Part shown: positions 3,450-46,679 of the stretch, in pieces
Layout of the letters: each line of letters starts with the position of its first letter
Numbering within the stretch: the stretch's first letter is position 1
Assembly (NCBI RefSeq): GCF_004341165.1
Contig: NZ_SLZR01000006.1
Coordinates: 124,001-188,000, forward strand
Length of the DNA stretch: 64,000 nt
Source of the DNA: Reinekea marinisedimentorum
Lineage (GTDB): Bacteria > Pseudomonadota > Gammaproteobacteria > Pseudomonadales > Natronospirillaceae
Direction of reading: 5' to 3'
Program-made: the position numbers and the translations under genes
Notes under the pieces: model-generated
Databases searched by the model: none
Told to the model about the DNA's origin: nothing
What the model saw: the letters and a program-made list of their open reading frames with translations, nothing else

Positions 3450-3470
3450 TCAGCAAAAAATCAATTACCC

Positions 3471-3503: not shown

Positions 3504-3559
3504 ATTAACTTCACTAATTCGCTCAAACTACCCGAAATATCGTTGTTACGGGCTTACCT

Positions 3560-4867: not shown

Positions 4868-6254
4868 CCCAAAGCTCGCTGTGGTCGGGCACCCGAATAA
4901 GGGTAAGTCCAGCATCGTTTCAACCCTGGTGCGTCAGGATGCCGTTGCGGTTTCCGAGCTTTCCGGAACCACGACGCAATCGCAAAGTTTTTCGATGATG
5001 GTCGATGGCAAAGAGCTGTATCAGCTGGTGGATACTCCCGGGTTTCAACGGCCGCGTCAGGTGCTCGAAATTCTGCAGGCGCAAACCCAGGATGCCTCGC
5101 AACGGAGACAGACGGTACAGGCGTTTCTGCATCAATACGCCCCCGATGGAAATCATAAATTTAAAGATGAAGCCGAACTGCTGGAGCCGATAGTCAACGG
5201 TGCAGGCATCGTTTATGTCGTTGATGGCTCGGTGCCGTATTCGCCGGAGTATGAGGCCGAAATGACCATCCTGCAGTGGACGGGGCAGCCGCGCATGGCA
5301 CTGATCAATCCGATTGGCGGCGAGCATTATGTGGAGCAATGGCAGGCTGCATTGAGCCAGTTTTTCAGCGTGGTTCGGGTGTTTAACCCGATGACGGCAG
5401 ATGGCGATAAACAACGGCAGATTCTGTCTGCCTTTGCCGAGTTACATGAGCCGTGGCGCACGAGTCTGGAGCAGGCTCAGCAACTCTTGGCTTTTCATTT
5501 GAATGACCTGCAGCGGCAGGGCGGGCAAATGATTGCCGAAGCCCTGCAGCAGATGGCGCAGTATCAGTCAAAGCTGCCTATTGTGTCGGAGCACGTGGAT
5601 TCGGCCGCTAAATATGGCCTGCGTCATCAATATGAAGCCGGGATACGCAGCCAGGAAAAGCAAATGCAGCAGCATGTCTGTGAGCTGTATTCGCACCATC
5701 AGTTGCAGCTGGAAAACGAAACGCTGGAGGTCGACTACCCGGATCTGTTCGACCGCAAGAGTTGGTATCTGTTTGGCCTCGACCGTACCAAGCTGGTGGG
5801 CTTGGCGGCCTCCGCCGGTGCCGCAGCCGGTGTGGCCATCGATGTCGGTGTCGGTGGCAGTTCACTGATGGCCGGTGCCGTGGCCGGCGGTGTGCTCTCT
5901 GGCGCCGCCACCCTTTATGCCACGCTCAAGCCTGAGCGCTTGAAGCTGAAAGGCATGCCGCTGGGCGGGCAGCAACTGGTTGCCGGGCCAATTAAAGACA
6001 TCAGTTTTCTGTTTGTTCTGTTTGGTCGGGCGGTAGAGTTGCTGGCTCAGGTATCAAGAAAAACACACGCCGATCGGCGCGTGGTGGTGGTCAGTGGTCT
6101 GGATTTTTCAGAGCGCTTTAATCAGTTAAGTAAGGTCGATCAGGTGAAGCTCACGCGCTTGCTGCAGCGCTTGCACAAGGGGCTGTCGTTTGAAGAAACC
6201 GAGCGGTTGAAGCGCTACATTATTGACCTGGTGGCTTTTGATAAGCCCGATTAA
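4860..6254 (+). CDS. GTPase with DUF3482-type C-terminus
   Basis: The 464-residue protein starts with a GTPase domain. The P-loop GHPNKGKSS is at residues 9-17 and the G3 motif DTPGF is near residue 58. A classical NKxD G4 motif is not obvious where INPIGGEH occurs, so nucleotide specificity is not certain from sequence. The second half has a glycine/alanine-rich hydrophobic stretch (about 305-350, with GxxxG spacing) that may enter or pack against a membrane. It overlaps the upstream DUF2868-type gene by 8 bp. The paired arrangement suggests a GTPase acting at the inner membrane, but the biological role of this family is not known to me. Confidence 0.8.
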   Translation: MTSPKLAVVGHPNKGKSSIVSTLVRQDAVAVSELSGTTTQSQSFSMMVDGKELYQLVDTPGFQRPRQVLEILQAQTQDASQRRQTVQAFLHQYAPDGNHKFKDEAELLEPIVNGAGIVYVVDGSVPYSPEYEAEMTILQWTGQPRMALINPIGGEHYVEQWQAALSQFFSVVRVFNPMTADGDKQRQILSAFAELHEPWRTSLEQAQQLLAFHLNDLQRQGGQMIAEALQQMAQYQSKLPIVSEHVDSAAKYGLRHQYEAGIRSQEKQMQQHVCELYSHHQLQLENETLEVDYPDLFDRKSWYLFGLDRTKLVGLAASAGAAAGVAIDVGVGGSSLMAGAVAGGVLSGAATLYATLKPERLKLKGMPLGGQQLVAGPIKDISFLFVLFGRAVELLAQVSRKTHADRRVVVVSGLDFSERFNQLSKVDQVKLTRLLQRLHKGLSFEETERLKRYIIDLVAFDKPD

Positions 6255-6256
6255 TG

Positions 6257-6284
6257 GCCCGGCGGAACAATTTGATTGCCGGGC
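6257..6284. terminator. Hairpin between convergent genes
   Basis: GCCCGGC (6257-6263) and GCCGGGC (6278-6284) form a perfect 7-bp stem between the GTPase stop and the convergent aldo/keto reductase stop. There is no T-run on either side, so termination is only suggested by position. Confidence 0.35.
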
Positions 6285-6306
6285 GTTGAGTTAGCGGTAC
6301 GCGTCG

Positions 6307-7155
6307 TTAGAAGGGTACGGTGTCGGGATCTTTTGATTCACCGCATTTGCCCGTCAGATTGGTCAGCAGGTTGAGTTCATCAACGGTCAGTTCGAAATCA
6401 AAAATATCCATATTCGCCTGCATTCTTTCTACTGTTACGCTCTTAGGCAGCGGCAAAAAGCCCATCTGCAGACTCCAGCGCAAGCACACCTGGGCGGCAT
6501 TTTTACTGTACTTATCGGCAATGGCCTGGATTTCATCAACTTTGAAAATCAAACCCTGAGCCAGTGGACTGTAGGCTTCAAGAAGCATGTCGTGCTGACG
6601 GCTGATTTCTACTGTTTGAGCATCCACATCACCCGGACAAAGACGAATCTGATGCACGGCTGGTTTTATGGTGGCCGTTTTTAACAGCTCGTTGATGTGG
6701 TGGGTGCGGAAGTTACTGATGCCAATGGCCCTGATTTTTCCCTGCTGGTAATAGCTTTCCATGGCGCGCCAGACTTCGCGGTTGCGCTGTTGCCAGTGAT
6801 CGCGGAATCGCTGCGGGCTGGGCCAATGAATGAGCACCAGGTCAAGGTAGTCGACGCCGAGCTTTTCCAGGGATTCATCCAGAGACTGAATGGTGTTGTC
6901 GTAGCCATCGATGGCGTTGGCAATCTTGGTGGTGATGAACAGCTCTTTACGGTCAACGCCGGCCAGCTTAATGGCTTTGCCGACACTTTCTTCGTTGCGG
7001 TAGCTTTGTGCGGTATCAATATGGCGATAGCCTATTTCAATGGCCTTCGCGATGGCCTCTGCACCGGAGTCATCGTCTGGTGTTTGGAAGGTTCCGTAGC
7101 CGAGCTTGGGTATTTCGACGTTGTTATTGAGTTTGTAGGTGGAGTTGATGCTCAT
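6307..7155 (-). CDS. Aldo/keto reductase
   Basis: The 282-residue protein has the family's usual length and a complete catalytic tetrad: D47 and Y52 (HIDTAQSY), K77 (FITTKI) and H110 (LIHWP). The cofactor-side motif PLPKS near residue 235 is also present. Such enzymes reduce aldehydes or ketones with NADPH in the cytoplasm. It resembles the DkgA/YvgN group, but the usual NQxEYHP segment reads HQIRLCPG here, so the substrate should not be inferred from that group. An AGAGAGGTAAGC-type ribosome-binding site precedes the ATG at 7155. It is a single gene, convergent with the GTPase operon. Confidence 0.9.
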   Translation of the reverse strand: MSINSTYKLNNNVEIPKLGYGTFQTPDDDSGAEAIAKAIEIGYRHIDTAQSYRNEESVGKAIKLAGVDRKELFITTKIANAIDGYDNTIQSLDESLEKLGVDYLDLVLIHWPSPQRFRDHWQQRNREVWRAMESYYQQGKIRAIGISNFRTHHINELLKTATIKPAVHQIRLCPGDVDAQTVEISRQHDMLLEAYSPLAQGLIFKVDEIQAIADKYSKNAAQVCLRWSLQMGFLPLPKSVTVERMQANMDIFDFELTVDELNLLTNLTGKCGESKDPDTVPF

Positions 7156-7409
7156 TGCTTACCTCTCTTTTTATGATGACTTATCAGTATCGCTGTTGCA
7201 GCACTCTAATATATCTGGTCTGCAGCAAACAGGGCTTCCTGTACAGAATACGAATTTATTGCAGATTCAAAAGCGTGACAGCCTGAGTACCAGCGCACGC
7301 TTTAGCGGTTAAAACGGGTCATTTTGGCCGCTGCTGTTTTTTACGGGCAATCAGACAGGCAATAAGCTGCTACTATAGTTGCCATTACCGTTCTTGACGT
7401 TTCAGTTGC

Positions 7410-9083
7410 ATGTTAAAAAACATCAAATCAAAATTTTTGCTGGGTTACTCACTGATAACCATCGCTTTTACTGTCACGCTAATGGGGGTTGCCTACCTGA
7501 CTGAGCGTCAGGAGCTGGCCAGACTGGCGCTGGAAAACTCCACGGCATTGTCCCGGCTGCATGCCGACCTTATCAGCAGTGAGATCCGCACCCGGGTGAC
7601 CGCACTTCAGGCTGTACGCAGCCAAATTACCGAATCCGATGGTGACATGGCGCTCATTATTAAGCACCTGGCGACGCTGATGCAGCTGGAGCAGGTGGGC
7701 TTTCTGCATGCGGCCTATGTTGATGAAGACTTTAATATTACGGATTACAACGGGGTTACAGAATCCGCCCTCGACCGCTCATTCCTGGATGATGAACGTT
7801 GGTACACGCAGGAGTTTCATGTCACGCCTCCTATTTTAGGGCGTTATACCAACAAGCCTATTATTTCTATTGGTGTCCCGGTTCTGAATGATCAGGGTGA
7901 ATGGCAAGGCGAGGTGCTGGCAGCTTTAACGCTGGAATACCTGAGCGAACGGCTGTCTGCGATCCAATTGGGTGAAGGCAGCTATGCCTGGTTGACCGAG
8001 GAGCAGGGCGATGTAATCGCCCATCCGGATGAAAGCCTGATTCTGAAAGCTAATGTGTTTGCGGCGGATGAATTAGGGTATTCCGGTTTAACGGTCATTG
8101 GTAACAAAACCCTAACCGAGGCAACCGGTTACGGTGAATACTATGATGCAAACAGCGGCGAATCGAAGATCGTGACCTTTGCAGAAATTGGCAATGTGCC
8201 AGGTTGGACGCTGTTTATTACCACCAGAAAGGACGTAATCTTTGCAGATATAGGTAATATTCTCGCTAATGTACTGGGCGCTTCGGCTATCCTGATGGTT
8301 ATTTTTTTACTGGTGGTCATGAAGATCACCAGTCGCATTACCCGGCCCATTACGGAACTGACACAGCAGGTAAAAAACTCCGTCAACGGGCATTATCAGC
8401 CCATTAACCTGAACCAGTCTGAGGATGAAATAGGCCAGCTTTCGCGCGCATTTAATGAAACCATTACAGCACTGGATGAGCATGCCCACAATCTGGAAGC
8501 GATGGTGGAGGCGAGAACTCAGGAGCTCAATACCGCCTACAGTGAACTGGAACAGACCAATCAGGCTCTGAAAGAAAAAAATACTATTCTGGAAGAAATT
8601 GCCTCCAAGGACCCGTTGACGGAGCTATACAACCGTCGTGCCTTCAACGTGTTTGCTGAAAAAGAAATGTCCCGTGCTGCCCGTCACGACAGTCCGGCCT
8701 CGCTGATTGTCATCGACATCGATCACTTCAAAAATATTAACGACAACTATGGTCATGATGTTGGTGATACGGTTTTATCGCGTATGGCGCACCTGCTGAT
8801 GCGTTACACACGCAAAGAAAATGTCGTCTGTCGCTGGGGTGGTGAAGAATTCATTATTTTGATTGCTGAAGCCAATCTCGATGTCGCGCAAAATATAGCG
8901 GAGTCTCTGCGTGAAAAAATTGCCGGCGAAGCCTTTGGGCCTTTAAAGCAGGTTACGGTGAGTGCAGGCGTTAGCAGCTATAAGGTTGGTGAGTCGTTGA
9001 AAGACTGGGTGCACAGGGCAGATCTGGCACTCTATGAAGCGAAGGCGCTCGGCAGAAACTGCGTTAGGGTGAGTGCCCAGTAA
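7410..9083 (+). CDS. Membrane-bound diguanylate cyclase with periplasmic sensor
   Basis: The 557-residue protein has a first membrane helix at about 9-30, a periplasmic sensor region (about 31-280, cache-like by layout), a second helix at about 285-306 and a HAMP segment starting SRITRPITEL. A short coiled coil leads to a GGDEF domain from about residue 395. The active site reads GGEEF at 477-481, which is a functional variant of GGDEF. Upstream, where the product-inhibition site RxxD would sit, the sequence is RKEN, so feedback inhibition by c-di-GMP may be lost. The predicted reaction is two GTP to c-di-GMP, controlled by a periplasmic signal that I cannot identify. Confidence 0.93.
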   Translation: MLKNIKSKFLLGYSLITIAFTVTLMGVAYLTERQELARLALENSTALSRLHADLISSEIRTRVTALQAVRSQITESDGDMALIIKHLATLMQLEQVGFLHAAYVDEDFNITDYNGVTESALDRSFLDDERWYTQEFHVTPPILGRYTNKPIISIGVPVLNDQGEWQGEVLAALTLEYLSERLSAIQLGEGSYAWLTEEQGDVIAHPDESLILKANVFAADELGYSGLTVIGNKTLTEATGYGEYYDANSGESKIVTFAEIGNVPGWTLFITTRKDVIFADIGNILANVLGASAILMVIFLLVVMKITSRITRPITELTQQVKNSVNGHYQPINLNQSEDEIGQLSRAFNETITALDEHAHNLEAMVEARTQELNTAYSELEQTNQALKEKNTILEEIASKDPLTELYNRRAFNVFAEKEMSRAARHDSPASLIVIDIDHFKNINDNYGHDVGDTVLSRMAHLLMRYTRKENVVCRWGGEEFIILIAEANLDVAQNIAESLREKIAGEAFGPLKQVTVSAGVSSYKVGESLKDWVHRADLALYEAKALGRNCVRVSAQ

Positions 9084-9084
9084 C

Positions 9085-9108
9085 GCAAACCCGGAGTGCC
9101 GGGCTTGC
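9085..9108. terminator. Terminator-like hairpin between convergent genes
   Basis: GCAAACCCGG and CCGGGCTTGC form a 10-bp stem with one A-C mismatch and an AGTG loop. It sits right after the cyclase stop and before the convergent YHS gene stop. The nearest plus-strand T-run (GTTTTATT) is about 10 nt further on. Confidence 0.5.
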
Positions 9109-9121
9109 TTGCGGTGAGGTT

Positions 9122-9571
9122 TTATTCCTGCAATAACTTCGGCCAGTTTTCGTCAGCCAGTTCAATGTATTTGCTGGTATCTACTTTCCATTTTTCCTGA
9201 ATCTTCGCGTTGTAGTTCAGATAGAGCTTGCCGTCAATCACGGAAAACTGTTCCGGTTCAATGCTTGCAGTTTTGCCATGCGCTACCGCCCAGGCACAAT
9301 AGCCACCGTATTGTGGTGCGTACATTTCCGGGTTGCTGACGAACAAGTTCAGGTGTTCTTCACTGGAAAAACGCCAGTCGGCTCCCTGCCATTCATACTC
9401 AAATTGCTTGCTGCCTTCTACGGCCGCATTTTCAGTAAAATAGGCAACCGGGTCGTAGCCGCGAATGGCCAGGTTGTTGTTCCACGGCGTGTAGATAGCA
9501 TCCAGAGCAACGGCCTGAGCGGCCACTGCCAGCGTTAAGAAAACAGAAATAAAAAGTTGGCGAACGGTCAT
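9122..9571 (-). CDS. Secreted YHS-domain protein
   Basis: The 149-residue product starts at the ATG at 9571, chosen over an upstream in-frame start at 9634 because AGAGG precedes it and a signal peptide (about residues 1-22, ending AQAVA) begins there. A YHS domain follows at about 36-95, with GYDPVAY at 38-44 and C92. YHS domains are short and often metal-linked, and the periplasmic versions are of unknown function. The start lies next to the stop of the DinB-fold gene, so the two are translationally linked in one operon with the OlsF-like gene. Confidence 0.85.
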   Translation of the reverse strand: MTVRQLFISVFLTLAVAAQAVALDAIYTPWNNNLAIRGYDPVAYFTENAAVEGSKQFEYEWQGADWRFSSEEHLNLFVSNPEMYAPQYGGYCAWAVAHGKTASIEPEQFSVIDGKLYLNYNAKIQEKWKVDTSKYIELADENWPKLLQE

Positions 9572-9572
9572 G

Positions 9573-10085
9573 TTAACAGGCCTCTTTGTGTTGATGGTTG
9601 CGTCGGTAGGTTGCGGTGCTGGGAGCAACGCCAATGTGATTCGGTACTGAAATACCCAGTGTTTTCGCAGCTAAAGCCGCGTATGCCAGGTGGTGTATTG
9701 AATGGTTGATCAGGTAAAGCAGTTCACGCTCAAGGCTCGATGCCAGTGTTTCGTTGAGGGTCGCATTCACACTGATTTCAGAAACGAGCTCGATGGGTTT
9801 GGATTTGTATTCAAGGTTGCTTAGCCAGACTATCAGGCTGTTAATTTGCGATTCCGCAATCAGCGCATCGGATTCTTCGTCACTGTCGCGGGTTCGCAAA
9901 TTGTAATTGATGCAGTCGTTGCTGATGCCTATCTTAACGGCACGGTAGTGATCGAGAATGTGGCGGGTATGTTCACCAATGGAGGCTACCGGGCCGTTTT
10001 TTGTGCTGTAATTTTCATCACAGCACTGAATCAGATCAATAAGTTGATTTAGAACTTCGATGTTCGCTTGGCAAAGATTGGTCAT
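9573..10085 (-). CDS. DinB-fold protein
   Basis: The 170-residue helical protein has the histidine pattern of the DinB/YfiT metalloenzyme fold, with H39, H42 and H46 near the N-terminus and H128, H131 and H132 in the fourth helix. Members of this fold include bacillithiol or mycothiol-dependent enzymes and many uncharacterised proteins, so no reaction is assigned. A strong ribosome-binding site (GGAAGGACT) sits directly before the ATG at 10085. That site lies inside the end of the upstream acyltransferase gene, giving a 50-bp overlap. The cysteine near the C-terminus (C170, last residue) is unremarkable. Confidence 0.75.
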   Translation of the reverse strand: MTNLCQANIEVLNQLIDLIQCCDENYSTKNGPVASIGEHTRHILDHYRAVKIGISNDCINYNLRTRDSDEESDALIAESQINSLIVWLSNLEYKSKPIELVSEISVNATLNETLASSLERELLYLINHSIHHLAYAALAAKTLGISVPNHIGVAPSTATYRRNHQHKEAC

Positions 10086-34743: not shown

Positions 34744-36276
34744 TTACTCTGCTTTTTGAACCGCTCGGCTACTGACGCGGTTGCCGAGTGCCATCATCGC
34801 CAGAATGATAAGAATTAAACCGGCCGGCAGCAGGGCACTGTTGTATGTCTGGAAGGGCGTTAAGCCGCTTCTCAGAGTTAGCTCACCTTCCAGGATCGCT
34901 TCAACAAATTGTTCGGAGCGAACGACAATTTCACCGTTGCCATCAACCAGTGCTGATATGCCATTCTGGGTTGCACGAACCATCGGCCGACCATTTTCAA
35001 TGGCCCGCATACGGGTGATCTGTAAGTGCTGATGAGGGCCGATAGAATCGCCAAACCAGGCGTCATTGCTGACCACCGCAATCAGATTAGCCTCTTTAGC
35101 CAGCCGGCGAACCAGATTCGGATAGGCGGCTTCGTAACAGATGACCGGTGCCACAAAGTAAGGCTGGTCGTTCACCGTCGCCTGAATTGGGCTTTGCCGC
35201 TCACCGGCCGGGCGCATGGTCGACATCGGTAAATCAAAGAAGGCGATAAGCCCGCGCAGCACGCCTTCCAGCGGAACATACTCGCCAAAGGGCACCAGGT
35301 GTTGTTTGCGGTACTCACCGCTGGCGGTGCCGTAACCTTTAATGGCGTTGTAGTAGGTGGTGAAGTTCTCGTGGGTAATAATGCCGGTCAGCAGGGCCAT
35401 ATCGTGCTTAGCGGCAAAGGCGTTGATGTCGGACAGGTAGGTGGGTATTTCGTCTTCCAGCCGGGTCATCGCGGCCTCCGGCCAGAGCATGAGGTCAGCT
35501 TCGCCATGAACCGTCAGTGCCTTGCCGAAGAATCTTAAGGTGGGCGTCTGTTGAGCTTCGATCCATTTGGTTTTTTGATTGATGTTGGATTGTACGGCGG
35601 CAACCCGGATGCTTTGTTGGCTGCTTGTCCAATGTGCTGCAGGGAAGGTCAGCCCGGCAGCGAGGGCAATAATGAACAGCACCACCGAGCCGAAAGCGGC
35701 AGTCATGGCGGCTTTCTTTTCGGCTTTCCAGTGCAATGCAGCAATGAGCAGCCAGGCGGCGATCAGCGCCATAATCAGGCTGAGCCCGTAAACACCGACA
35801 ACAGCCGCGAGCTGGGCTATCGGCAGGTTGATTGTGGCGTAGCCGGCAAACAGCCAGGGAATACCGGTGAATACCCATTCCCGCAGCCACTCATTCACGA
35901 CCCACCAGCAGGGCGCCAGCAGCATCAGTGCGCCGGGCAGGGATTTTAGGAATTTATGATAAAACCAGAATTGAAACAGGAAGAACAGCGCCAGTGCCAG
36001 ACAAAACCCGGCGGTTAAAAAGACCGACAGCCATACGGGTGTTTCCACTGTTTGCATGCTGCCGTATATCCATGAAACCCCCAGACCGAAGAAGCTGACG
36101 CCATAGAGCCAGCCAAGTAACGAGGCTTCTTTACTGTTTTCAGCCGTGTGATTCAGCCAGATAGCAGTGGCGATGCCAATAAGTGCCAGTGGCCAGATAT
36201 TAAAGGGTGCCAAAGCCAATGGCATGCATAGGCCCGAAATAAGAGCGGCCAGAAGCCTGAGTGGTCGGTTGAACAT
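34744..36276 (-). CDS. lnt: Apolipoprotein N-acyltransferase
   Basis: The 510-residue enzyme adds the third acyl chain to lipoproteins at the inner membrane. An N-terminal membrane part (about 1-215) is followed by a periplasmic nitrilase-like domain with the triad E267 (WPEAA), K324 (RKQHLVPFGE) and C380 (ICYEA). Its products are substrates for the Lol pathway, which is also represented in this window. It is a single gene here, without the corC/ybeX neighbour often found beside it. Confidence 0.95.
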   Translation of the reverse strand: MFNRPLRLLAALISGLCMPLALAPFNIWPLALIGIATAIWLNHTAENSKEASLLGWLYGVSFFGLGVSWIYGSMQTVETPVWLSVFLTAGFCLALALFFLFQFWFYHKFLKSLPGALMLLAPCWWVVNEWLREWVFTGIPWLFAGYATINLPIAQLAAVVGVYGLSLIMALIAAWLLIAALHWKAEKKAAMTAAFGSVVLFIIALAAGLTFPAAHWTSSQQSIRVAAVQSNINQKTKWIEAQQTPTLRFFGKALTVHGEADLMLWPEAAMTRLEDEIPTYLSDINAFAAKHDMALLTGIITHENFTTYYNAIKGYGTASGEYRKQHLVPFGEYVPLEGVLRGLIAFFDLPMSTMRPAGERQSPIQATVNDQPYFVAPVICYEAAYPNLVRRLAKEANLIAVVSNDAWFGDSIGPHQHLQITRMRAIENGRPMVRATQNGISALVDGNGEIVVRSEQFVEAILEGELTLRSGLTPFQTYNSALLPAGLILIILAMMALGNRVSSRAVQKAE

Positions 36277-36578: not shown

Positions 36579-37553
36579 ATGATTAACAAATGGATTGCTT
36601 CACTGGCATTGATGCTCTTATGCCTGTCCGCACAGGCCACGACAATATTTATTGTTTCCAGTTACCACCCCGAATACCAATGGGATGCCGATTATGTTCG
36701 GGCGATTAAAGAAAATTCCTCTTCCGGGTACGAATTTATTCAGCGATCGCTGGATAGCAAGAACCTGCCGCCGGAACAATGGCAACAGAAAGCCGCTGAA
36801 ATTGTGGCTGAAATCAGAAAAACCAAGCCGGATGTTGTGGTTATTGGTGATGACAACGCACTCACCACCGTCGGGATGGAAATTAAAACCTCCGGTATAC
36901 CCATTGTGTTTCTGGGGATTAACGGTTCTGCGCGACAATACGGGCTGGGTGGCGGCTCGCCGATGACCGGCATTTATGAACGGCCGTTTATTGAGGCATC
37001 GATTCGCCACGTATCCAAGGTAACCAAAGGGAATTTACCCATTCTGGTGCTGATGGATAACTCGACTACTATGCAGAATACCGTCAGCGAAAAGTTTGCT
37101 GATCAGCGCAGTGTGGAGGTTCAGGGCACACAGGTGGATATTCTGCTGACCAACTCGGCGCGGGAATGGAAGACGGCGATCGCCGGTGCGCATGAGCGCT
37201 ACAGGGCCGTGATTGTTGGCACCTACCACACCTTACGGCATGACGACGGCGCTGCGTTTAGCGATGAGTCTGCCATGCTCTATGCTCAAACTGCGTTAAA
37301 GGTGCCGCTGTTTGCACTGTGGGATTTTTCCGTAGCGCCCGATAAAGCCGCCGGTGGCTATGTAATTTCGGCCTATGAAGAGGGTAAGTCTGCTTCGCGG
37401 ATTATTCGGCTGGTGCTTAGTGGTGTGCCGGTGAGCAGTATTGCCTCCAGCAATTCGCAAACGGGGCACTATATTTACAGTAAGAAGGCTATGGAAAAAT
37501 GGGGTATTCAGCTTTCACCGCTGGTGGCCTCCCAATCCACATTCCTTAAATAG
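36579..37553 (+). CDS. Periplasmic ABC-type substrate-binding protein (PF04392-like)
   Basis: The 324-residue protein has a signal peptide ending AQA (about 1-20). IFIVSSYHPEYQW follows, then repeated Rossmann-like strands such as DVVVIGDDNAL and GIPIVFLGING. This resembles the PF04392-type 'ABC transporter substrate-binding' family, which often serves sensors or uncharacterised transporters. It is the first of six closely spaced same-strand genes, 9 bp before the LolA-like gene. In this context it may deliver a ligand to, or sense for, the permease pair. Confidence 0.7.
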   Translation: MINKWIASLALMLLCLSAQATTIFIVSSYHPEYQWDADYVRAIKENSSSGYEFIQRSLDSKNLPPEQWQQKAAEIVAEIRKTKPDVVVIGDDNALTTVGMEIKTSGIPIVFLGINGSARQYGLGGGSPMTGIYERPFIEASIRHVSKVTKGNLPILVLMDNSTTMQNTVSEKFADQRSVEVQGTQVDILLTNSAREWKTAIAGAHERYRAVIVGTYHTLRHDDGAAFSDESAMLYAQTALKVPLFALWDFSVAPDKAAGGYVISAYEEGKSASRIIRLVLSGVPVSSIASSNSQTGHYIYSKKAMEKWGIQLSPLVASQSTFLK

Positions 37554-37562
37554 GAGCTTGCG

Positions 37563-38309
37563 ATGAGAAACAGAGCGGGAAAATTTCTGAGTACCTTGTG
37601 TTTCTTGTTGTTGCCTTACCCGCTGCTGGCAGAGGGTATCGATGGTGTTCAGTTGCTTGAAAAGATCGATAACCTCTACCAGCAGGAAAACGCCCACGCC
37701 TCCATGACTATGGAGATTGAAACCAAAGATTTCAGCCGGTCTGTTTCTCTTGATTCCTGGGCCATTGGCCTGGATTACTCACTGGTGAAGGTCACCGCGC
37801 CGAAAAAAGAGCAGGGCATTGCCACGCTTAAGCGCGAAAACGAAATGTGGAACTACCTGCCTAAGATCAACAAGGTCATTAAGGTGCCGCCCTCCATGAT
37901 GATGGGCAGCTGGATGGGTTCCGATTTCACCAATGATGACCTGATGCGTGAAGGCTCCTGGGTCGATGAATTTGATGTCACCCTGAGCGAAACCGGCAAC
38001 CTTTATCAGCTCGATCTGCTCGCCAAAGAAAACACCGTGACGGTTTGGGGTCGAATGCAGATTCTGGTGGAAAAACACAGCCTGTTGCCGGTCAGGCAAA
38101 TCTATTTCGATGAAGATGGCACCGCCATGCGCGAAATGACCTTCAGCGAAGTGAAAACATTTGATGGCGTCACCCTGCCTACCGTTCTGGAGCTGGTGCC
38201 ACTCAACAAAGAAGGCAATAAAACCCGGGTTGTGTATGAATCGATGGCGTTCGATATCGACCTGGACGAAGATTTTTTCAGCCTGCAAAACCTGAAAAAA
38301 AGACGCTGA
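37563..38309 (+). CDS. LolA-like outer-membrane lipoprotein-sorting protein
   Basis: The 248-residue periplasmic protein has a signal peptide ending LLA (about 1-23) and a beta-rich body like the 'outer membrane lipoprotein-sorting protein' family (LolA-like, COG2834). Typical features are KKEQGIATLKRENEMWNYLP and MMMGSWMGSDFTNDDL (near 75-125). Family members often accompany RND-type exporters; here the partners are LolC/E-like permeases. A periplasmic carrier of lipid or lipoprotein is the likely role. It lies 10 bp before the first permease gene. Confidence 0.8.
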   Translation: MRNRAGKFLSTLCFLLLPYPLLAEGIDGVQLLEKIDNLYQQENAHASMTMEIETKDFSRSVSLDSWAIGLDYSLVKVTAPKKEQGIATLKRENEMWNYLPKINKVIKVPPSMMMGSWMGSDFTNDDLMREGSWVDEFDVTLSETGNLYQLDLLAKENTVTVWGRMQILVEKHSLLPVRQIYFDEDGTAMREMTFSEVKTFDGVTLPTVLELVPLNKEGNKTRVVYESMAFDIDLDEDFFSLQNLKKRR

Positions 38310-38319
38310 GGCTGGCCGT

Positions 38320-39549
38320 ATGCTGATGCTCCGATTAGCATTCCGCAACATCCTGCGCAATAAGCGGCGTACCGTGCTGACCATGCTCAGCATGTTGGGT
38401 GGCTATGTTTTGCTGGTGTTGTCGCTTTCTGTGCAGAATGGCAGCTATGAGCAGGTGATCGATTTCTTCACCAAAGACAGTACCGGTCACGCGCAGATCA
38501 GTGAAGTTGGTTATCAGCAACGGGCAACGCTCTACAAGGCGGTGCCGGCCAGCGATGCCTTCTATCAGCAGCTTACTTCTTTGCCGCTGGTGAGTGCCGC
38601 GGCACCACGCATTAAGAGTGGCGCACTGGCCTATGGCGAAACAAAAAGCTTCCCTGTTCAGGTTGTGGGTGTTGATGCGCAAAAAGAAGCCGGGCTTTCG
38701 TTTCTGGCTGAAAAAATCAAACAGGGCCGTTACTTCAATGCACAGCCGAACAGCGACGGCTATTTTGAGGTAATGGTTGGCGCTGCCGTTGCCCGGCAAT
38801 TGCAGGTGGCGCTGGGTGATGAACTGGTACTGATCTCGCAAGGTGCTGATGGCTCGCTGGCCAACGATCTGTTCAGCATTGTCGGCCTGATCGGTTCAAC
38901 GGAAAGCCTGGATGCGCGCACTGTTTATCTGCCGCTGCTGGCCGCCCAGAATTTTTTTGCTATGCCGGGTGAGGCTCACTATTGGGTTGTTTTGGCAGGC
39001 AATTACCGGCAAAGCGACGAACTGACGGCACAACTGAACCAGTGGCTGGCGGATAGGCCCGAGCTTGAGGCGGCCAGTTGGAAGGTGGTGTCCGAAGAAT
39101 TCTACAAAACCATGCAGGCCGATATTGAAGGCGGCTATATCTTTTATTACATCATTATCTTTCTGGTGTGTATTGGCGTGCTCAATACCGTACTGATGTC
39201 TGTGCTCGAGCGAACCGGTGAGTTTGGTGTACTGAAGGCCATTGGCACGTCGCCCTCGCGGTTGTTCTTTTTAATCATTCAGGAAACCCTGTTACTGGCA
39301 GGCTTGAGTTGCCTTTTCGGTTTGTTGGCTGCTTTGCCGCTGAACTACTGGCTGGCCAGCACCGGCTTTGCCTTACCCGAGCCGATGGAGATTTCCGGTG
39401 TTGTTATGGCCCACATGAAGGGGCAGTGGGACCTGGCTGTGTTTGTAGAGCCGGCGTTGATTGTCATTGGCTCGGTTGCTCTGATCGCTGTGTTTCCGGC
39501 GTTGAAAGCGGCACGCATTGTACCGGTTGATGCCATGAGGGGGCTGTAA
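38320..39549 (+). CDS. ABC permease, FtsX/MacB/LolC-type, first
   Basis: The 409-residue protein has the LolC/LolE/MacB layout: helix near 18-38 after a basic start (FRNILRNKRRT), a large periplasmic domain (about 45-265), then three helices at about 270-300, 320-345 and 375-400. The FtsX core shows ERTGEFGVLKAIGTSP. It pairs with the next gene. The type usually extracts substrates from the outer leaflet of the inner membrane instead of importing solutes. Confidence 0.88.
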   Translation: MLMLRLAFRNILRNKRRTVLTMLSMLGGYVLLVLSLSVQNGSYEQVIDFFTKDSTGHAQISEVGYQQRATLYKAVPASDAFYQQLTSLPLVSAAAPRIKSGALAYGETKSFPVQVVGVDAQKEAGLSFLAEKIKQGRYFNAQPNSDGYFEVMVGAAVARQLQVALGDELVLISQGADGSLANDLFSIVGLIGSTESLDARTVYLPLLAAQNFFAMPGEAHYWVVLAGNYRQSDELTAQLNQWLADRPELEAASWKVVSEEFYKTMQADIEGGYIFYYIIIFLVCIGVLNTVLMSVLERTGEFGVLKAIGTSPSRLFFLIIQETLLLAGLSCLFGLLAALPLNYWLASTGFALPEPMEISGVVMAHMKGQWDLAVFVEPALIVIGSVALIAVFPALKAARIVPVDAMRGL

Positions 39550-39552
39550 CTC

Positions 39553-40782
39553 ATGAACCTTATCTTCAAGCTGGCACTGCGAAATATTGCGCGTAACAAG
39601 CGCCGGACGGCGCTGACGGTTTTGCTGATCAGCATGACGCTGGCATTGTTGATATTTTCCGATGGTTATATGAAGGCCATGTCGGATGTGATGATCCGCT
39701 CGGCCACGCGCCTGTACCCCGGCGATGCGCAGATCCATCAGGTCGGGTACAGAGCAGAATATGATGCCGAGCTGCCGGTAAACTCGCCGGATGCGTTGCT
39801 GGAAAAACTGCAAAGCCACCCGCTGGTGCAAAGCTATACCGTGCGCACCATGGATTTCGGTATGGTGTCGAGTACCGCCAATAATCTTTCCGTGCAGGTG
39901 GTGGGCATTCGCGCTGAAAGCGAAGCGCAGGTTTCTAAATTGAAGCAAAGCATCGTTGCCGGACGCTACCTTTCCGACGACGACGCAGAAACCCAAATTT
40001 TGATAGGCACACGCCTGGCCGAAGAGCTGGAAGCCAAACCGGGTGACCGGCTGGTGGTTTCTCTGAACAACTATGAAACTCAGGAAATTGAGCAGCGCTT
40101 GTTCCGCGTCACCGGTATTTTCAAAATGAACTCCAAGTTTTTTGATGAGGGGCTGGTCTTTATTCAGTTACCGTTGGCGCAGCAGATGCTGGGGTTAGGC
40201 TCTGCCATTCATGAAATTGCGTTTAACTTTCAGCAGGAAACACTCTCTGGCGATAAATCTCTGGCCATCTGGCGTGAGCTTTCAATCGCAAACAACCTTG
40301 CTGAAGGCTGGAAAACCCTGATGCCTGAGCTTGCCTCCATGATCGGCATGTTTGATTACAGCATGTTTATTGTCGGCGGCATTCTGTTTGTGGTCGCGAT
40401 TCTGGGGGTGGTGAATGCCATGTTTATGTCGATCTATGAACGCACTTACGAATTCGGCGTGATACTCGCCATTGGCACCCGCAGGCTGACCATCTTCAAG
40501 CTGATCATGACGGAAGGCCTTATGTTGTGCCTGGTCTCGCTGGTCATTGGTGCAGTCATCGGCACTGTCGCGGTGTTGTGGGTTGCGCATATGGGAATCG
40601 ATTACGGCGATATGGATTTTTCCGGTGTGGCCTTGGCCGAGGTACTGCGGCCGGAGCTCAGATGGCAGCAGTTTACAGAGCTGCCGTTCGCCGTTTTTTT
40701 GATGACCATGCTGGCATCGGTGTACCCGGCGATTCATGCCGCGCGTATTGTTCCGGCGAAAGCCTTGCACCGGAGTTTATAG
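39553..40782 (+). CDS. ABC permease, FtsX/MacB/LolE-type, second
   Basis: The 409-residue protein has the same layout as its neighbour: LRNIARNKRRTALT at the start, a periplasmic domain to about residue 270, then three helices, with ERTYEFGVILAIGTR in the FtsX core. The two are diverged copies of identical length, implying a heterodimer as in LolCE. It lies 3 bp after the first permease and 9 bp before the ATPase. Confidence 0.88.
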   Translation: MNLIFKLALRNIARNKRRTALTVLLISMTLALLIFSDGYMKAMSDVMIRSATRLYPGDAQIHQVGYRAEYDAELPVNSPDALLEKLQSHPLVQSYTVRTMDFGMVSSTANNLSVQVVGIRAESEAQVSKLKQSIVAGRYLSDDDAETQILIGTRLAEELEAKPGDRLVVSLNNYETQEIEQRLFRVTGIFKMNSKFFDEGLVFIQLPLAQQMLGLGSAIHEIAFNFQQETLSGDKSLAIWRELSIANNLAEGWKTLMPELASMIGMFDYSMFIVGGILFVVAILGVVNAMFMSIYERTYEFGVILAIGTRRLTIFKLIMTEGLMLCLVSLVIGAVIGTVAVLWVAHMGIDYGDMDFSGVALAEVLRPELRWQQFTELPFAVFLMTMLASVYPAIHAARIVPAKALHRSL

Positions 40783-40791
40783 GAGCTGCTG

Positions 40792-41487
40792 ATGAAACCG
40801 GTAATAGAAACACGACAACTGGGCCGCTTTTATGGCGAGGGCGATACGCTGGTACGGGCACTGCATCAGGTTGATCTGCAAATAGAACCGGGTGAATTTA
40901 CCGCCATTGTTGGGCCTTCCGGCTCGGGTAAATCAACCTTGCTGCAGTTGATGGGTGGCCTGGATAACCCTGACGAAGGCACGGTGCTGCTCAAAGAAAA
41001 GGCAATATCGGAGATGTCCGGGCGTGAGCTTTCCGATTTCCGCCGTGATCATATCGGCTTTATTTTTCAGGCCTACAACCTGATTCCGGTGTTGAGCGCT
41101 GCCGAAAACTGTGAATACATCATGTTGCTGCAGGGCATTCCCGCCGCTGAACGAAAAGCACGGGTATATGCCATGCTGGAGCAGGTGGGCCTGAAGGGAA
41201 AAGAGCAGCGCCTGCCGAATCAGCTTTCCGGTGGGCAACAGCAGCGCGTTGCCGTTGCCCGCGCGATGGTCAGCAGGCCGGATATTATTCTGGCCGATGA
41301 ACCCACGGCGAATCTGGATTCGCAAACCGGTATGGACCTGCTCGACATGATGCACGAGCTTAACCGTCAGCAGGGCATGACCTTTGTCTTTTCAACCCAC
41401 GATCCAAAAATTATGGAGCGCGCCAGCCGGTTGATTCATATAGAAGACGGCAGGGTGATTGGGGAGCAGCGGCGTGATGAAGGTTAA
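40792..41487 (+). CDS. LolD/MacB-type ABC ATPase
   Basis: The 231-residue ATPase has Walker A GPSGSGKS at 41-48, signature [14 protein letters not shown] and Walker B IILADEPT, all intact. It belongs to the LolD/MacB/FtsE group that drives FtsX-type permeases by mechanotransmission. It overlaps the next gene by 11 bp. GGAG precedes the ATG. Confidence 0.93.
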
Positions 41488-42640
41488 CGCTTCGCTGTTG
41501 CTGTTGCCGCTGATCAGTGCGCCGCTGTTTGCGCTCGATTACGACCAGAGCGTGGAAATCAGTAGCGCACTGCAGCTCAGCGATTACCCCTCTGTCACAG
41601 AAGATGGCAGCACGGTTATCAGTGGTCGTACCGAATGGCAGGGCAGCCTGGAAGGCTTCTGGAACCTGTACCTATACAGCAGCGAAAACACGCAGCTGAA
41701 TGCGCGCTATGGGCTTTCACTGCAGGGCGAAACCCGTCGCGATTTTGTTGGCGATGACGAGGCCTCTACCGCAGACTACCGCGCCTTCGATCTGGATGCG
41801 TTGCTCCTTGGCAGCGAGAGTGACCGTACCCGGTTGTACCAGCAGCTCGACCAGCTCTCGGTCACCTGGTACAGCAACGCGGGCGATTACACCCTTGGCC
41901 GCCAGCCCATTAGCTTCGGCCTGGCTAAGTTTTATTCCCCGGTCGACATCATCTATCCCTTCGATCTATACGCCACCGATACCGATTATCGCCCCGGCGT
42001 GGATGCACTGCGCGGTACCTGGCAGTTGGGTGCGTTGACAGAATTTGACGCTGGCTGGGTGTTCGGCAGTGACAGCGTCCTGTTCAGCCGTTTTAAAGCC
42101 TCCGTCAACAGCATCGATGCCGAAGCTATCGTGCTGGCCATTAATGGTGAAAACCTAAATTTTTCTCTGGGTACGCAAACGGCGATCGACGAGATAGGGC
42201 TCTGGCAGGAAACCGCCTTGCTGCTCGATGAAGATCACCACTACCTGCGGACCACGCTGGGTGCCGATTACACCGTACTGAGTGATCTCTACCTCGTCGC
42301 CGAAGTTCATTACAACGGTGCAGGTGCCCGCTCTGGTTACGACACGAACAGCGCCGGTAATTCTTTCTATCAGCTCGGTGCCATCAGTACGCTGGGCAAA
42401 TGGTATGCAAGCGTGCAGGGCAGTTACCCGGTTAATATTCTGACTTCAGTCTCATCCGGCATCTCTGTGAACCTGAACGATGGCTCTGCGCTTGCCAATC
42501 TGGCTCTGAGTGTGAACGCGACGGATGCAATGAACGTCGATTTATCTGCGGTTCTGCCGCTGGACGACGAGCATAGTTACGACAGTGAGTTTGGGCTTTA
42601 CCCGGCGTACCTGCTGGCAGAGGTTTCCTGGGTTTTTTAG
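41477..42640 (+). CDS. Outer-membrane beta-barrel protein of the cassette
   Basis: The 387-residue product begins at the ATG at 41477, inside the end of the ATPase gene; a TTG at 41459 is rejected. A signal peptide (about 1-19, ending LFA) precedes alternating amphipathic strands, and the last residue is phenylalanine (SWVF), the usual outer-membrane barrel signal. A LGRQPISFG segment near residue 140 recalls DUF1302-like proteins that accompany LolA-like/RND systems. I infer that it receives or exports the cassette's cargo at the outer membrane, but the fold and family need confirmation. Confidence 0.7.
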   Translation: MKVNASLLLLPLISAPLFALDYDQSVEISSALQLSDYPSVTEDGSTVISGRTEWQGSLEGFWNLYLYSSENTQLNARYGLSLQGETRRDFVGDDEASTADYRAFDLDALLLGSESDRTRLYQQLDQLSVTWYSNAGDYTLGRQPISFGLAKFYSPVDIIYPFDLYATDTDYRPGVDALRGTWQLGALTEFDAGWVFGSDSVLFSRFKASVNSIDAEAIVLAINGENLNFSLGTQTAIDEIGLWQETALLLDEDHHYLRTTLGADYTVLSDLYLVAEVHYNGAGARSGYDTNSAGNSFYQLGAISTLGKWYASVQGSYPVNILTSVSSGISVNLNDGSALANLALSVNATDAMNVDLSAVLPLDDEHSYDSEFGLYPAYLLAEVSWVF

Positions 42641-43118: not shown

Positions 43119-45566
43119 ATGCAATTAAATAAAATTGGATTGAGTGCCGTTATAGCCATCGCTTTAGCCTTTGCCGGCTGCTCAAGTGGTGGTTCAGATG
43201 GTGATGATTCGACTACCTACTCTGCTTCTGGTGCAGTAGCGAAAGGGATCATTATTGGTGGCCAGGTAACGGCCAGGGAGCTGGTCGATGGCGATTGGGT
43301 TGAACGTGGCTCAGCTATAACGGATGAGTCAGGTGCTTACACCCTTGATATGGAAAACTATCAGGGTGGCATTGTGGTGTTATCTGTTGCGTCGCTGCCA
43401 ACCACGGAAATGATTGATGACGATCCTTCTTCCAGTACCTTTGGTCAATCAATTGCGGCCGATCCAAACCTGGAAATGGACAGCGTTATTGGTTCTGTAG
43501 GCTCTGGTACTGTGAGTAACGTTCCCATTACTCCTTATACACACATGGCGGCGGCAATTGTCGGTAAAACTCTCGAAGCTGGCAGCCCGGTCACTGATGA
43601 TGTGGTCGACAATGCCAACAGTGAGGTTTCGGTATTGGTTGGCTTCGATGTCATAAATACAGCCGTTGTTGATGTTACCAACGCCGATGCCATGGCGAAC
43701 GCCAGTGCTTTTGAGCAGCAGGCGGCAATGCTTTGTGCAGCCGTCACAATGATGGTGGATGAATCAACTTCCCTGGCCGATGTGGTGGATCTTTTAGCAG
43801 ATTCATTTGAAGACGGTATCTTTAGTTCAACGGATGGAATACTAATAAGTGACCTGACCGATGCCTGGTCTGCGATTGCATCGAATACCGCGTTTGACGA
43901 CCTGGTTGATGATACCGTCATCCTGCAAATTGAGAATAAAACAGCAGCCATCAATACGGCTGTCGCTGCCAGTGGTGATGGAAGCTATAACCCAGAGCCC
44001 AGCGGCAATGCGGGTGACCCCGATATTGTGATCGCTAAAGCTGTGATGAGCGATATGAGATCCCTGGTCAACAATATGCTTGAGACCGATTATGACACGC
44101 CTCTCGATCTCGTTGCCGATGAAGCTGGAGATGTTGTTGATCTGTTTGATCGTGATATGGCTGCTATTGCTGAATTCACCGAGCTTGGAATTCAAACTAT
44201 GCTGGAAGAGCTTTCGCTGAGCAATGATGTGTATTTAGAAGAGCTGGAATTAAATTCGACAACAGCGGTTCAGGTCGAAGTCTATGACGAATTGGTTTAT
44301 CTGGGGGATTTAACCTTATCTGTTACCGACCCTGTGGCGGGTGCGCAAATAGTCTTATCCGGTACGTTAACCGGTTCAGGGGAGGATGCTGCCAGTGTCG
44401 TTTATAACGATTTAACGCTCAGTACGAATGTTCCGTTGGAAGATTTTCTAAATCTAATGACCGATCAGACGACCTACAGCCTGGAGGTCAGCGGTTCCGT
44501 CAGTAGTGCGGACAGCAGTATTGGAATGACAGACGGTACGGTGACGGTTGTAGCAGAAGAACCTGTTTCGGAGGGCGTCGAACCCTCGTTCAGCAGTATT
44601 AGCCTGTCGGATATGACGCTGGTACTGGATTCTGATGGCGGTACCTTTACCGGTACAGCCGGCTTTAGTTTCGTTGCTGTTGACGAGGCCAGTGTGTCTG
44701 CTCCGCTCTATGGCGATATCGCTTTTCTGACTTTGAGTAGTGTCGATTTGAGTGGTGATTTTGCGCTGGATAGCGGAGCTGAGTTCGCAGCATCTGTTAG
44801 CCTTGATCTCTCCAACTCCGATACCTTTGATATAGCCGCATTCCTCAATCAGCACAATGTGGTTTATGTATGGATGTACGATGTTCTTAGCCAAACTGAA
44901 ATTGATAACCTCGTTGCTACGGGCTTGCTGGCTAATGATTATTGGGAGCTAGACTATGGACATTATTGGAATAGTACGTTTGCGTGGACATACGATGATG
45001 TTAATGGCTGGTTAGAGGCCGATGGTTCTTATGCCAGTTTTGCAGCTGTTGTAGATCCGGAAGCCGCGCTGGCAGAAGCCATGACCAGTACGAGTGAATA
45101 TGATGTCTGGTGGATCGATCTCTGGGCCAGCTCAACGGGTGAGAGTGAACTGGAGGCAGAGATTGAATTGGGTTCATTGGATGAAACAGAAAATAGCTTC
45201 CTACAGTTAGAGTTCACACTCAGTACGGCGTTAACCGGTATTTCCGGTATGCCGAACATCGAGGTAACGGCAACGGTTGTTCGCAGCGCGCTGAATGCGG
45301 GTTCCGCTGTTGTGCAGCTGAACTGGGACGATGACCTCTATGTCATGACATTGGCAGTGGATGATTTTGACAATGAAATAGCCTCACTGACCATTACTAA
45401 CCCTGATAATGCCAGTTTGATTCTGACTAACATCGATGACGATGAATCCATGGATGAACTGACGGGTGAGCTATTGGTTGGTGATAGTAAGATCGCTGAT
45501 ATTGAAACGTTGGATAACGGCCTGGTTAAGATTACCTATATCGATGAAACCATCGAAATATTCTAA
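43119..45566 (+). CDS. Large acidic lipoprotein, function unknown
   Basis: The 815-residue product has a lipoprotein signal with FAGC, lipidating C20. A short regulatory-like beta domain follows (about 35-100: SASGAVAKGIIIGGQVTAR, TDESGAYTLDM), then a helical segment to about 300 and a long beta-rich stretch rich in D, S, T and V to the end. It is strongly acidic with few lysines. I do not recognise the family; marine gammaproteobacteria carry many such surface or periplasmic lipoproteins. A GGAGATGAATA ribosome-binding region precedes the ATG. It is followed after 12 bp by an outer-membrane protein gene, so the two probably act together. Confidence 0.75.
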   Translation: MQLNKIGLSAVIAIALAFAGCSSGGSDGDDSTTYSASGAVAKGIIIGGQVTARELVDGDWVERGSAITDESGAYTLDMENYQGGIVVLSVASLPTTEMIDDDPSSSTFGQSIAADPNLEMDSVIGSVGSGTVSNVPITPYTHMAAAIVGKTLEAGSPVTDDVVDNANSEVSVLVGFDVINTAVVDVTNADAMANASAFEQQAAMLCAAVTMMVDESTSLADVVDLLADSFEDGIFSSTDGILISDLTDAWSAIASNTAFDDLVDDTVILQIENKTAAINTAVAASGDGSYNPEPSGNAGDPDIVIAKAVMSDMRSLVNNMLETDYDTPLDLVADEAGDVVDLFDRDMAAIAEFTELGIQTMLEELSLSNDVYLEELELNSTTAVQVEVYDELVYLGDLTLSVTDPVAGAQIVLSGTLTGSGEDAASVVYNDLTLSTNVPLEDFLNLMTDQTTYSLEVSGSVSSADSSIGMTDGTVTVVAEEPVSEGVEPSFSSISLSDMTLVLDSDGGTFTGTAGFSFVAVDEASVSAPLYGDIAFLTLSSVDLSGDFALDSGAEFAASVSLDLSNSDTFDIAAFLNQHNVVYVWMYDVLSQTEIDNLVATGLLANDYWELDYGHYWNSTFAWTYDDVNGWLEADGSYASFAAVVDPEAALAEAMTSTSEYDVWWIDLWASSTGESELEAEIELGSLDETENSFLQLEFTLSTALTGISGMPNIEVTATVVRSALNAGSAVVQLNWDDDLYVMTLAVDDFDNEIASLTITNPDNASLILTNIDDDESMDELTGELLVGDSKIADIETLDNGLVKITYIDETIEIF

Positions 45567-45578
45567 AAGGATTAGTTA

Positions 45579-46679
45579 TTGATACGACGCTTCATTAACA
45601 ATGCCCGCGGTTGCGGGCATTTCCTTGGGTGTTCGCTGTTGAGTTTTATCGTCGCTGCGAGCACTCCGGCAGAGCTGAATGCCGAGCCTTATGTGTCTGC
45701 TGATTACTTCATTTACAGTGAGCCTGTTTCTGTTTCTACCGCCTTGAATGAATTGCTGGGCGATTTCAGCGCCGGTGAGCGTGCCTACTTTTACCGCTGG
45801 TACGAAGTCGGAATTGTTTTCGATAATCGTTGGGGTTTTGGTTATGTTGATCGGCGGGATTATTCGCTGAGGTTTTCCCGCGATGCCGCAGAACTGGTCG
45901 GTACTGTTGTGAACGGCGATGAGTTGGAAACGGGTCGTGAATACGACATTACTCTGGAGTCGTATGGTGTCGACAGTGAAGGTATGCGGTTTTTTGTTCG
46001 CCCCGACTTAAAGCCCTGGCTGAATATGGAGGTTGGGCTTTCGTTATTGAAGTCTTACTCTCTGCTCGACGGTAGCGTTTCCGGAACGGCGTCTGCTGTT
46101 GCATCCGATGAATATGAATATTCTTTGGCCGTTGATTATTACTATACGGACGACATTCTGTTTGAACGTAGTGTCGAGGATGTCACCGGCTTTGGCGCTA
46201 CACTGGATATAGCCCTGTCCGCGCAGTTGAATGCTAACTGGCGCTGGGATGTTAGAGTTCATGACCTGTTGGGTGCGCTGTATTGGGAGGACGTGCCCAA
46301 TACCCTGGCAGAAGCCTATAGCGATAGAGTCACCGTTACCGAAGCGGGCTATGCCGAATGGGATCCGGCCGTTTCCGGGGTTGAAACCAACGAAGATTAT
46401 GTTCAATGGCTGGAGCGCAGGATTAACAGCGAGCTTTATTGCCGCTATGGAAGGCTGCGTTGCGGTATTGGTGCTCAATATTGGGTTGATGATTTATTAA
46501 CCCGTGCCGGTATCGGTTATCAGTTCAAAAAATTAAATTTTTTTGGCTGGTATTGGCGGGAAAGCTCCGCTGTCGAGCTTGCCGTCTCCTGGCCGGTGCT
46601 TTCTGTCAGTGCCGGTGTCGATAATATTAACCCTGAAGAGGTCAAAGCGGCTTTCGTTGCTGTAATGCTGAATTATTAG
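45579..46679 (+). CDS. Predicted outer-membrane protein paired with the acidic lipoprotein
   Basis: The 366-residue product starts at TTG 45579 with AAGGA about ten bases upstream. A signal peptide (about 1-36, ending LNA) is followed by alternating strands rich in tyrosine, tryptophan and phenylalanine, and the chain ends in tyrosine (AVMLNY), as expected for a beta barrel. I recognise no family. Codons 7-15 fold into a strong hairpin (listed separately), which could control its translation relative to the lipoprotein. It is convergent with the flhB-like gene, 18 bp away. Confidence 0.6.
   Translation: MIRRFINNARGCGHFLGCSLLSFIVAASTPAELNAEPYVSADYFIYSEPVSVSTALNELLGDFSAGERAYFYRWYEVGIVFDNRWGFGYVDRRDYSLRFSRDAAELVGTVVNGDELETGREYDITLESYGVDSEGMRFFVRPDLKPWLNMEVGLSLLKSYSLLDGSVSGTASAVASDEYEYSLAVDYYYTDDILFERSVEDVTGFGATLDIALSAQLNANWRWDVRVHDLLGALYWEDVPNTLAEAYSDRVTVTEAGYAEWDPAVSGVETNEDYVQWLERRINSELYCRYGRLRCGIGAQYWVDDLLTRAGIGYQFKKLNFFGWYWRESSAVELAVSWPVLSVSAGVDNINPEEVKAAFVAVMLNY
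45600..45621 (+). promoter_or_regulatory. Hairpin over the start of the outer-membrane protein gene
   Basis: AATGCCCGC and GCGGGCATT form a perfect 9-bp stem with a GGTT loop, 33 bp after the lipoprotein stop and within codons 7-15 of the next gene. Only TTCC follows, so it is a weak terminator at best; it may lower expression of the second gene. Confidence 0.45.

Follow-up and report, generated by a model that had tools for sequence, protein, structure and literature searches.

The homologues of MacB named in the passages on which we draw are LolCDE/LolDF, FtsX, YbbAP and others (PMC5985334, PMC8277102), and LolC is described there as recruiting LolA via its Hook (PMC8277102). The closest published analogue that we found to the locus reported here is BBJ23-29 of Borrelia, a computational proposal in which, according to the cited passages, a MacB-like ATP-binding cassette (ABC) transporter, a LolA-like carrier and an outer-membrane barrel are clustered (PMC13078400). 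We analysed a 64,000-nucleotide stretch of the Reinekea marinisedimentorum genome (the window; assembly GCF_004341165.1, contig NZ_SLZR01000006.1, positions 124,001 to 188,000), where an earlier note had read six open reading frames (ORFs) at 36579-42640 as a trans-envelope cassette resembling a second Lol pathway. Our comparisons have shown that the conserved unit is five genes, encoding a carrier, two permeases, an ATPase and a barrel, and that the binding protein at the head of the run lies outside it. The block differs from the Borrelia system in its barrel, its paired permeases, its taxa and its gene set; as described in those passages, BBJ23-29 belongs to spirochaetes and has an Omp85/BamA-type barrel, a homodimeric permease, two tetratricopeptide repeat (TPR) proteins and one unknown protein.

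Three sets of genomes, each including the present one, were used to delimit the unit. In the first (38 genomes) the carrier had a match at E<=0.001 in 31 genomes, many of them weak, and the loci of the 20 best other genomes were taken as relatives' loci. By tblastn and profile search, all five genes are present in the order carrier, two permeases, ATPase, barrel in 18 of these 20. When the class-level sample (229 genomes) was searched with the carrier at E<=1e-25, the scores formed two groups, a strong one (E<=6e-66) of 23 loci from 21 other genomes and a lower one of seven loci from 2e-28 to 7e-26. The five genes are complete in 18 of the 23 strong loci and the remaining five are cut by contig ends, with a barrel match on another contig in three of the five genomes concerned. 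At phylum level (299 genomes) the carrier was found at E<=1e-30 in 55 genomes, and 20 loci of the 54 others, 16 from a single family, were hand-picked by score and by the length of contig around them. All five genes are present in 17 of the 20, and two are cut by contig ends. Two loci counted as complete (L087 and L125) have one gene split over two frames. Two further loci keep the five genes and their order: that of Vibrio campbellii (L079, which is among the profile rows) and that on a Persicobacter plasmid (Bacteroidota; L132, which is not). Since the last five genes of the run recur in the same order in most homologous loci, their arrangement is not due to chance. In contrast, a profile of the binding protein and four homologues matched none of 65 loci (20 from relatives, the V. 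campbellii locus, 23 at class level, 20 at phylum level and Persicobacter), although four of these (L097, L103, L112 and L125) reach less than 0.9 kb upstream of the carrier, so that absence there says little. It was absent from the relatives' loci by tblastn too.

The barrel, which had been named as a regular component, proved to be one, being present in most relatives', class-level and phylum-level loci. A search of the class-level sample with the barrel profile only gave 19 other genomes at E<=1e-10, all within the 21 strong-carrier genomes. Across the 228 other genomes, 19 have carrier and barrel, two the carrier only (G089 and G163, in both of which the cassette is cut by a contig end), none the barrel only and 207 neither (Fisher p = 9e-26, a value that overstates independence because the genomes are related). 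The co-occurrence of all six families proposed in the earlier note thus stands for the neighbourhood and the barrel and falls for the binding protein, which is missing from most related loci, and the earlier interpretation as a whole is partly supported. As a separate observation, one family outside the class (f205, genomes of ~1-3 Mb) contributes 48 of the 54 other genomes with a carrier in the phylum sample, and the block may be common in that family.

The cassette works like Lol but is not Lol. Shared with the Lol pathway (LolCDE or LolDF, LolA and LolB) are a type VII ABC transporter, FtsX/MacB permeases, an ATPase, a carrier of LolA fold and, as would apply to the cassette, the inner-to-outer-membrane direction. 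The cassette differs in that its proteins score below the Lol cut-offs, its carrier belongs to PF17131 and not to PF03548, and a barrel is found instead of a LolB lipoprotein. Its permeases reach 112 and 135 bits against the lolCE equivalog TIGR02212 (cut-off 362), where the cell's own LolF reaches 460, and for its ATPase the best NCBIfam model is LolD (TIGR02211), at 230 bits against a cut-off of 308. The ATPase reads QAYNLIPVL where the LolD-like ATPase of the same cell reads QFHHLLPEF; QFHHLLP is the stretch that marks LolD. The cell's own system consists of the sole PF03548 match in the genome (LolA, C3:179339), a LolF-type permease above the cut-off with a LolD-like ATPase adjoining, and LolB in the window at 18018 (PF03550, 2.9e-33), where it had been placed before. 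Because the genome encodes LolA, LolF/LolD and LolB outside the cassette, and because the cassette proteins miss the Lol cut-offs, the cassette is not the cell's Lol, in agreement with the earlier view of a Lol-like trans-envelope route apart from the main one.

Other described systems share fewer parts with the block. The MacAB-TolC system has the same permease domains, MacB_PCD and FtsX; however, it uses an adaptor and TolC and has its ATPase fused in MacB, whereas the cassette has a carrier, a barrel and a separate ATPase. A cluster of MacAB-TolC look, judged by appearance, is present on contig C31 of this genome. For ApeLMN (aryl polyene, PMC8253772) and LolA2/LolB2 (flexirubin, PMC11885536), the cited passages propose a LolA-like carrier for an outer-membrane lipid or pigment and mention no block of ABC transporter and barrel. 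The Ape system has an RND (resistance-nodulation-division) pump and a LolB-like protein, flexirubin transport has LolB2, and both are tied in those passages to biosynthesis genes. Another mixed layout is reported for Bacteroidota operons, which combine ABC ATP-binding proteins, an MMPL transporter and a lipoprotein-sorting protein in the text available to us (PMC10434189). No description of the block in Pseudomonadota was found among the titles and opening parts of abstracts that were searched, a search that covered few subscription journals.

The carrier (248 residues, 37563..38309, + strand) matches PF17131 (LolA_like, 9.4e-47) with 159.5 bits against a Pfam cut-off of 30 bits, and no other family at E<=0.1; hence it is not a PF03548 LolA. 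Its model (predicted local distance difference test score, pLDDT, 87.6) has a predicted LolA-like open-barrel fold. The best solved matches (9tp6, 4z48, 3bk5 and 3buu) give Z scores of 24.6-25.9, compared with 9-13 for true LolA chains, and LolA3 of P. gingivalis ties with 4z48 and 3bk5 as the top match (Z 25.9, 2.3 Å, 219 residues). Column conservation in the alignment is highest at residues 105-128 (VIKVPPSMMMGSWMGSDFTNDDLM; 37875..37946), where it averages 0.89 against 0.62 overall, and this segment is probably part of a lid over the groove. The β2-β3 loop of LolA holds a conserved arginine, Arg43 in E. coli. In the 21 aligned carriers no conserved arginine was found in the loop after strand 2, a loop placed by eye from the model, and LolA3 of P. 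gingivalis is likewise described, in the passage cited, as being without it (PMC13103446).

The permeases (409 residues each; 38320..39549 and 39553..40782, + strand) both have MacB_PCD and FtsX domains and four hydrophobic regions, so that the type VII architecture of four membrane segments and a MacB-like periplasmic domain is present. The best solved relatives of both are LolF and LolE. A tree of 129 permease modules contains a clade (support 0.89) that splits the pair, taking in one member and leaving out the other, in 51 of the 62 loci with two permeases, those of the window, Vibrio and Persicobacter included, while 200 shuffles of the pairings split at most 41 loci, with a mean of 32. 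This would suggest, from sequence, that the two proteins act together as a heterodimer. No such split is seen in 11 loci: the six with fused permeases and L053, L103, L126, L128 and L129. Labelling the permeases by best profile was also tried and gave no two clean clades (best F 0.76). In the six fused loci (L096-L100 and L130) both permeases lie in one frame, and the order is carrier, ATPase, fused permease, barrel; the sole fusion checked with Pfam, the 842-residue protein of L098, shows two MacB_PCD and two FtsX stretches. The ATPase that follows in the window (231 residues, 40792..41487, + strand) is an ABC_tran protein with Walker A, LSGGQ signature and Walker B recognised by eye.

The barrel (387 residues, 41477..42640, + strand) has a signal-peptide-like start and an invariant C-terminal phenylalanine, and matches no Pfam or NCBIfam family at E<=0.1 and no solved chain by sequence. 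Its model (pLDDT 84) has 18 long predicted strands by our own count and resembles OprD-family porins, chitoporin, MOMP and AlgE, which are tied within Z 1 at Z ~22-24; in the best 41 alignments the root-mean-square deviation is 2.6-3.8 Å over 283-322 residues, at 6-11% identity. Pfam finds no Omp85 domain in it, and no Omp85 chain is among the fold matches listed, which excludes nothing. That the barrel replaces LolB, as had been suggested, is plausible; the predicted fold is a porin/AlgE-like channel and not a LolB-like receptor. Conservation over 15-residue windows peaks in those that begin at residues 136-142 and 171, and one at 270 comes close. The best-conserved part, residues 141-177 (GRQPISFG...SPVDIIYP...YRPGVDA; 41897..42007), covers the end of strand 5, a long loop and the start of strand 6. 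If porin topology holds, this loop would be the third outer loop, at the loop-3 position that usually forms a constriction.

A distant relation of this barrel to those of RND-driven cassettes is suggested by profile comparison. Beside the seven lower-scoring class-level carriers there is an MMPL-type gene in six cases and a longer barrel-like protein in six, and cassette permeases in none. The one pump tested with Pfam is MMPL, as expected from the earlier statement that LolA-like proteins also accompany RND exporters; two of the three barrels tested are DUF1302 (PF06980), and the third (L107) matches nothing. By hhalign the cassette barrel matches the RND-cassette barrel set at 95.8% with L107 included and at 77.1% without it, a value that thus hinges on a single intermediate sequence, compared with at most 0.8% for the controls (a TonB receptor, two window proteins, a 458-residue protein of the C31 cluster and a reversed alignment). 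Among other barrels the values are 99.4% for Persicobacter, 84.6% for L053, 72.6% for an E. coli plasmid (weak similarity) and 1.1% for Bdellovibrio (none). The RND/MMPL exporters (L104, L106, L108-L110 and, in the passages cited, Ame of Castellaniella; PMC6394551) thus resemble the cassette in having a carrier of the PF17131 or DUF1329 type, together with a distantly related barrel that shows a GRQ...G...D...P motif, the GRQ motif being present in five RND-cassette barrels. They differ in having an RND pump and, in the two cases noted, a PF06980 barrel, whereas the cassette has an ABC transporter and a barrel in no Pfam family. Membership of the barrel in DUF1302 was rejected, since there is no Pfam match and the similarity is one of distant profiles alone. 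The E. coli plasmid (L080; NZ_CP060058.1, ~350-10000) encodes an ATPase, one permease, a LolA-like protein and a barrel-like one in the midst of a gene cluster that also has ketoacyl-synthase and crotonase genes; a near-identity search found it in two of 5426 complete E. coli genomes. The Bdellovibrio plasmid also has a single-permease version, with an ATPase, a LolA-like protein and a barrel-looking protein.

Taken together, these comparisons of families, gene order and co-occurrence, with the predicted folds, make it probable that the block is a self-contained five-gene trans-envelope exporter with the binding protein as an accessory. The ABC part, with its two different permeases and ATPase, would lift a cargo from the inner membrane at the expense of ATP; the LolA-like carrier would take it over and cross the periplasm, and would then hand it to the outer-membrane barrel. 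These steps of extraction, transfer and delivery are inferred from what is written on Lol and MacB in the passages cited (PMC5985334, PMC8277102). The likeliest cargo is an amphiphilic lipid or a lipid-linked molecule or metabolite rather than bulk lipoproteins, because the latter have their own route and because LolA-like carriers elsewhere have been tied, by proposal and in the passages available, to lipids and pigments (PMC8253772, PMC11885536). A compact block with its own motor, carrier and exit, separate from Lol and retained across families, is a candidate for a lipid route that serves neither lipopolysaccharide nor lipoproteins. The number of lipids beyond these two that reach the outer membrane is still poorly known. 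Since the cassette barrel is distantly related to those of RND cassettes, it seems that two kinds of motor drive similar exit parts, and if the exit parts are truly common, it would follow that carrier-barrel pairs can change motors in evolution. More tentatively, and with somewhat greater doubt than assent on our part, the block may belong to an undescribed class of exporters in which a carrier and an AlgE-like GRQ-loop barrel form the exit and motors are interchangeable. The motor would be a heterodimeric type VII ABC transporter in this block, an RND pump in other cassettes and an ABC transporter with a single permease in still others, one of which lies in a natural-product-like cluster. 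In many Pseudomonadota the ABC form would then provide a constant route for some lipid of the outer membrane or the cell surface.

Several observations weigh against an exporter of lipids conserved as a five-gene block. For the relatives and V. campbellii, the profiles derive from the very loci that were searched with them, and the V. campbellii barrel is matched only at 4e-5 with the window protein alone as query. L050 has no recognisable barrel and a TonB-dependent receptor downstream, L053 is a distant version with another gene order and a weakly Wzi-like protein, and in L126 neither ATPase nor barrel appears in the 3.7 kb that follow the permeases. The block is unevenly distributed: a strong carrier (E<=3e-62) is found in 16 of 22 genomes of the own family, this one included, with one genome of the same genus among the six that have no strong match, and is absent from 207 of the 228 other class-level genomes. 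A Hook for docking of the carrier is not evident: the permease loop at the Hook position, an equivalence judged by eye from sequence, is 4-5 residues shorter than that of LolF. The predicted fold of the barrel is common to porins and AlgE, which pass water-soluble molecules, and is unlike a lipid inserter. Finally, when the ORFs flanking 63 ABC-type loci (L053 and L132 excluded) were clustered, no family among the 22 widest clusters occurred in more than three independent groups, and those clusters look generic; an earlier clustering that included RND loci likewise gave at most three groups among the ABC-type loci. With no recurring cargo gene next to the cassette, cargo and direction rest on the protein families.

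Were the cassette instead a specialised second route for lipoproteins, its ABC part would extract a subset of them and its barrel would place them on or through the outer membrane. The permeases do score best against the lipoprotein-releasing LolF and LolE, and 10 of the 16 loci from the family have lnt upstream of the cassette. However, that neighbourhood was seen within the family only and is accompanied by liv-type ABC genes, no lipoprotein gene was noticed recurring beside the cassette in the neighbour clustering, and this reading, which we regard as rather unlikely, has to accommodate curated Lol cut-offs that no protein reaches, an ATPase without the QFHHLLP stretch and a carrier without the conserved arginine. 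The same neighbourhood bears on efflux of hydrophobic toxic compounds (solvents, terpenes or antimicrobial lipids), a function put forward for RND systems that have DUF1302 and DUF1329 partners: a block fixed beside lnt in those 10 loci, with no catabolic gene family recurring next to it, weighs against efflux, while the patchy distribution would suit an optional defence, and because of it efflux keeps some standing. The distant relation to DUF1302 barrels of RND/LolA-like cassettes also points that way, as does Ame of Castellaniella, which has such partners and is named, in the passage cited, for apolar monoterpene efflux (PMC6394551). On balance we judge efflux improbable here.

The notion furthest from the comparative data is that all six genes form one system that responds to a ligand, with the PF04392 protein as its sensor or supplier, as the earlier note had supposed. 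That protein (324 residues, 36579..37553, + strand; ABC_sub_bind, 1.3e-10) heads the run in this genome, on the strand of the carrier and 9 bp before it, and in V. campbellii a SBP_bac_3-GGDEF protein (4409-5851 of L079) lies directly upstream of the cassette, its binding domain being unrelated to that of the window protein. Against these two arrangements stand its absence from all 65 loci, on which the six-gene cassette was rejected, and the genes that fill the slot upstream of the carrier in the relatives examined: by sequence look, a methyltransferase, an EamA-like protein, a thiolase-like protein (on the opposite strand) and a protein like those that bind cyclic nucleotide monophosphates (cNMP). 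The binding protein occurs in 9 of the 38 first-sample genomes, this one included, and its four closest homologues (44-47% identity) lie away from the cassette in the relatives' genomes, three beside unrelated genes and the fourth placed by coordinates only. As a general rule the six-gene reading is contradicted, and we give it very little credence; in the five-gene exporter, the binding protein is a passenger, an accessory gene that was acquired locally and is possibly co-transcribed here. A second PF04392 protein of this genome (G000:C2:131929-132858, L074), 33% identical to the first, lies on another contig and is also away from any cassette.

The layout given in the earlier note was confirmed by the ORF list of the window. 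All six ORFs are on the + strand, with gaps of 9, 10, 3 and 9 bp from the binding protein to the ATPase and an 11-bp overlap of ATPase and barrel if the ATG at 41477 is taken as the start of the barrel; the ORF list has a longer TTG start at 41459. Two promoter-like sites were found, both on the - strand, where 6.6 were expected. Terminator-like sites lie 3' of the barrel at 42747 and 42864, and as there are 17 such sites across the region, no claim is made from them. The 3' neighbours of the cassette (43119-46679) encode proteins of 815 and 366 residues, the first of which has an N-terminus that looks, by eye, like that of a lipoprotein; neither has a Pfam family, and tblastn of the relatives' loci found neither. 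On the other side, lnt (apolipoprotein N-acyltransferase, 34744-36276) is divergent and upstream of the cassette. Within the block, the second permease is 64-68% identical to its counterparts in three Reinekea records.

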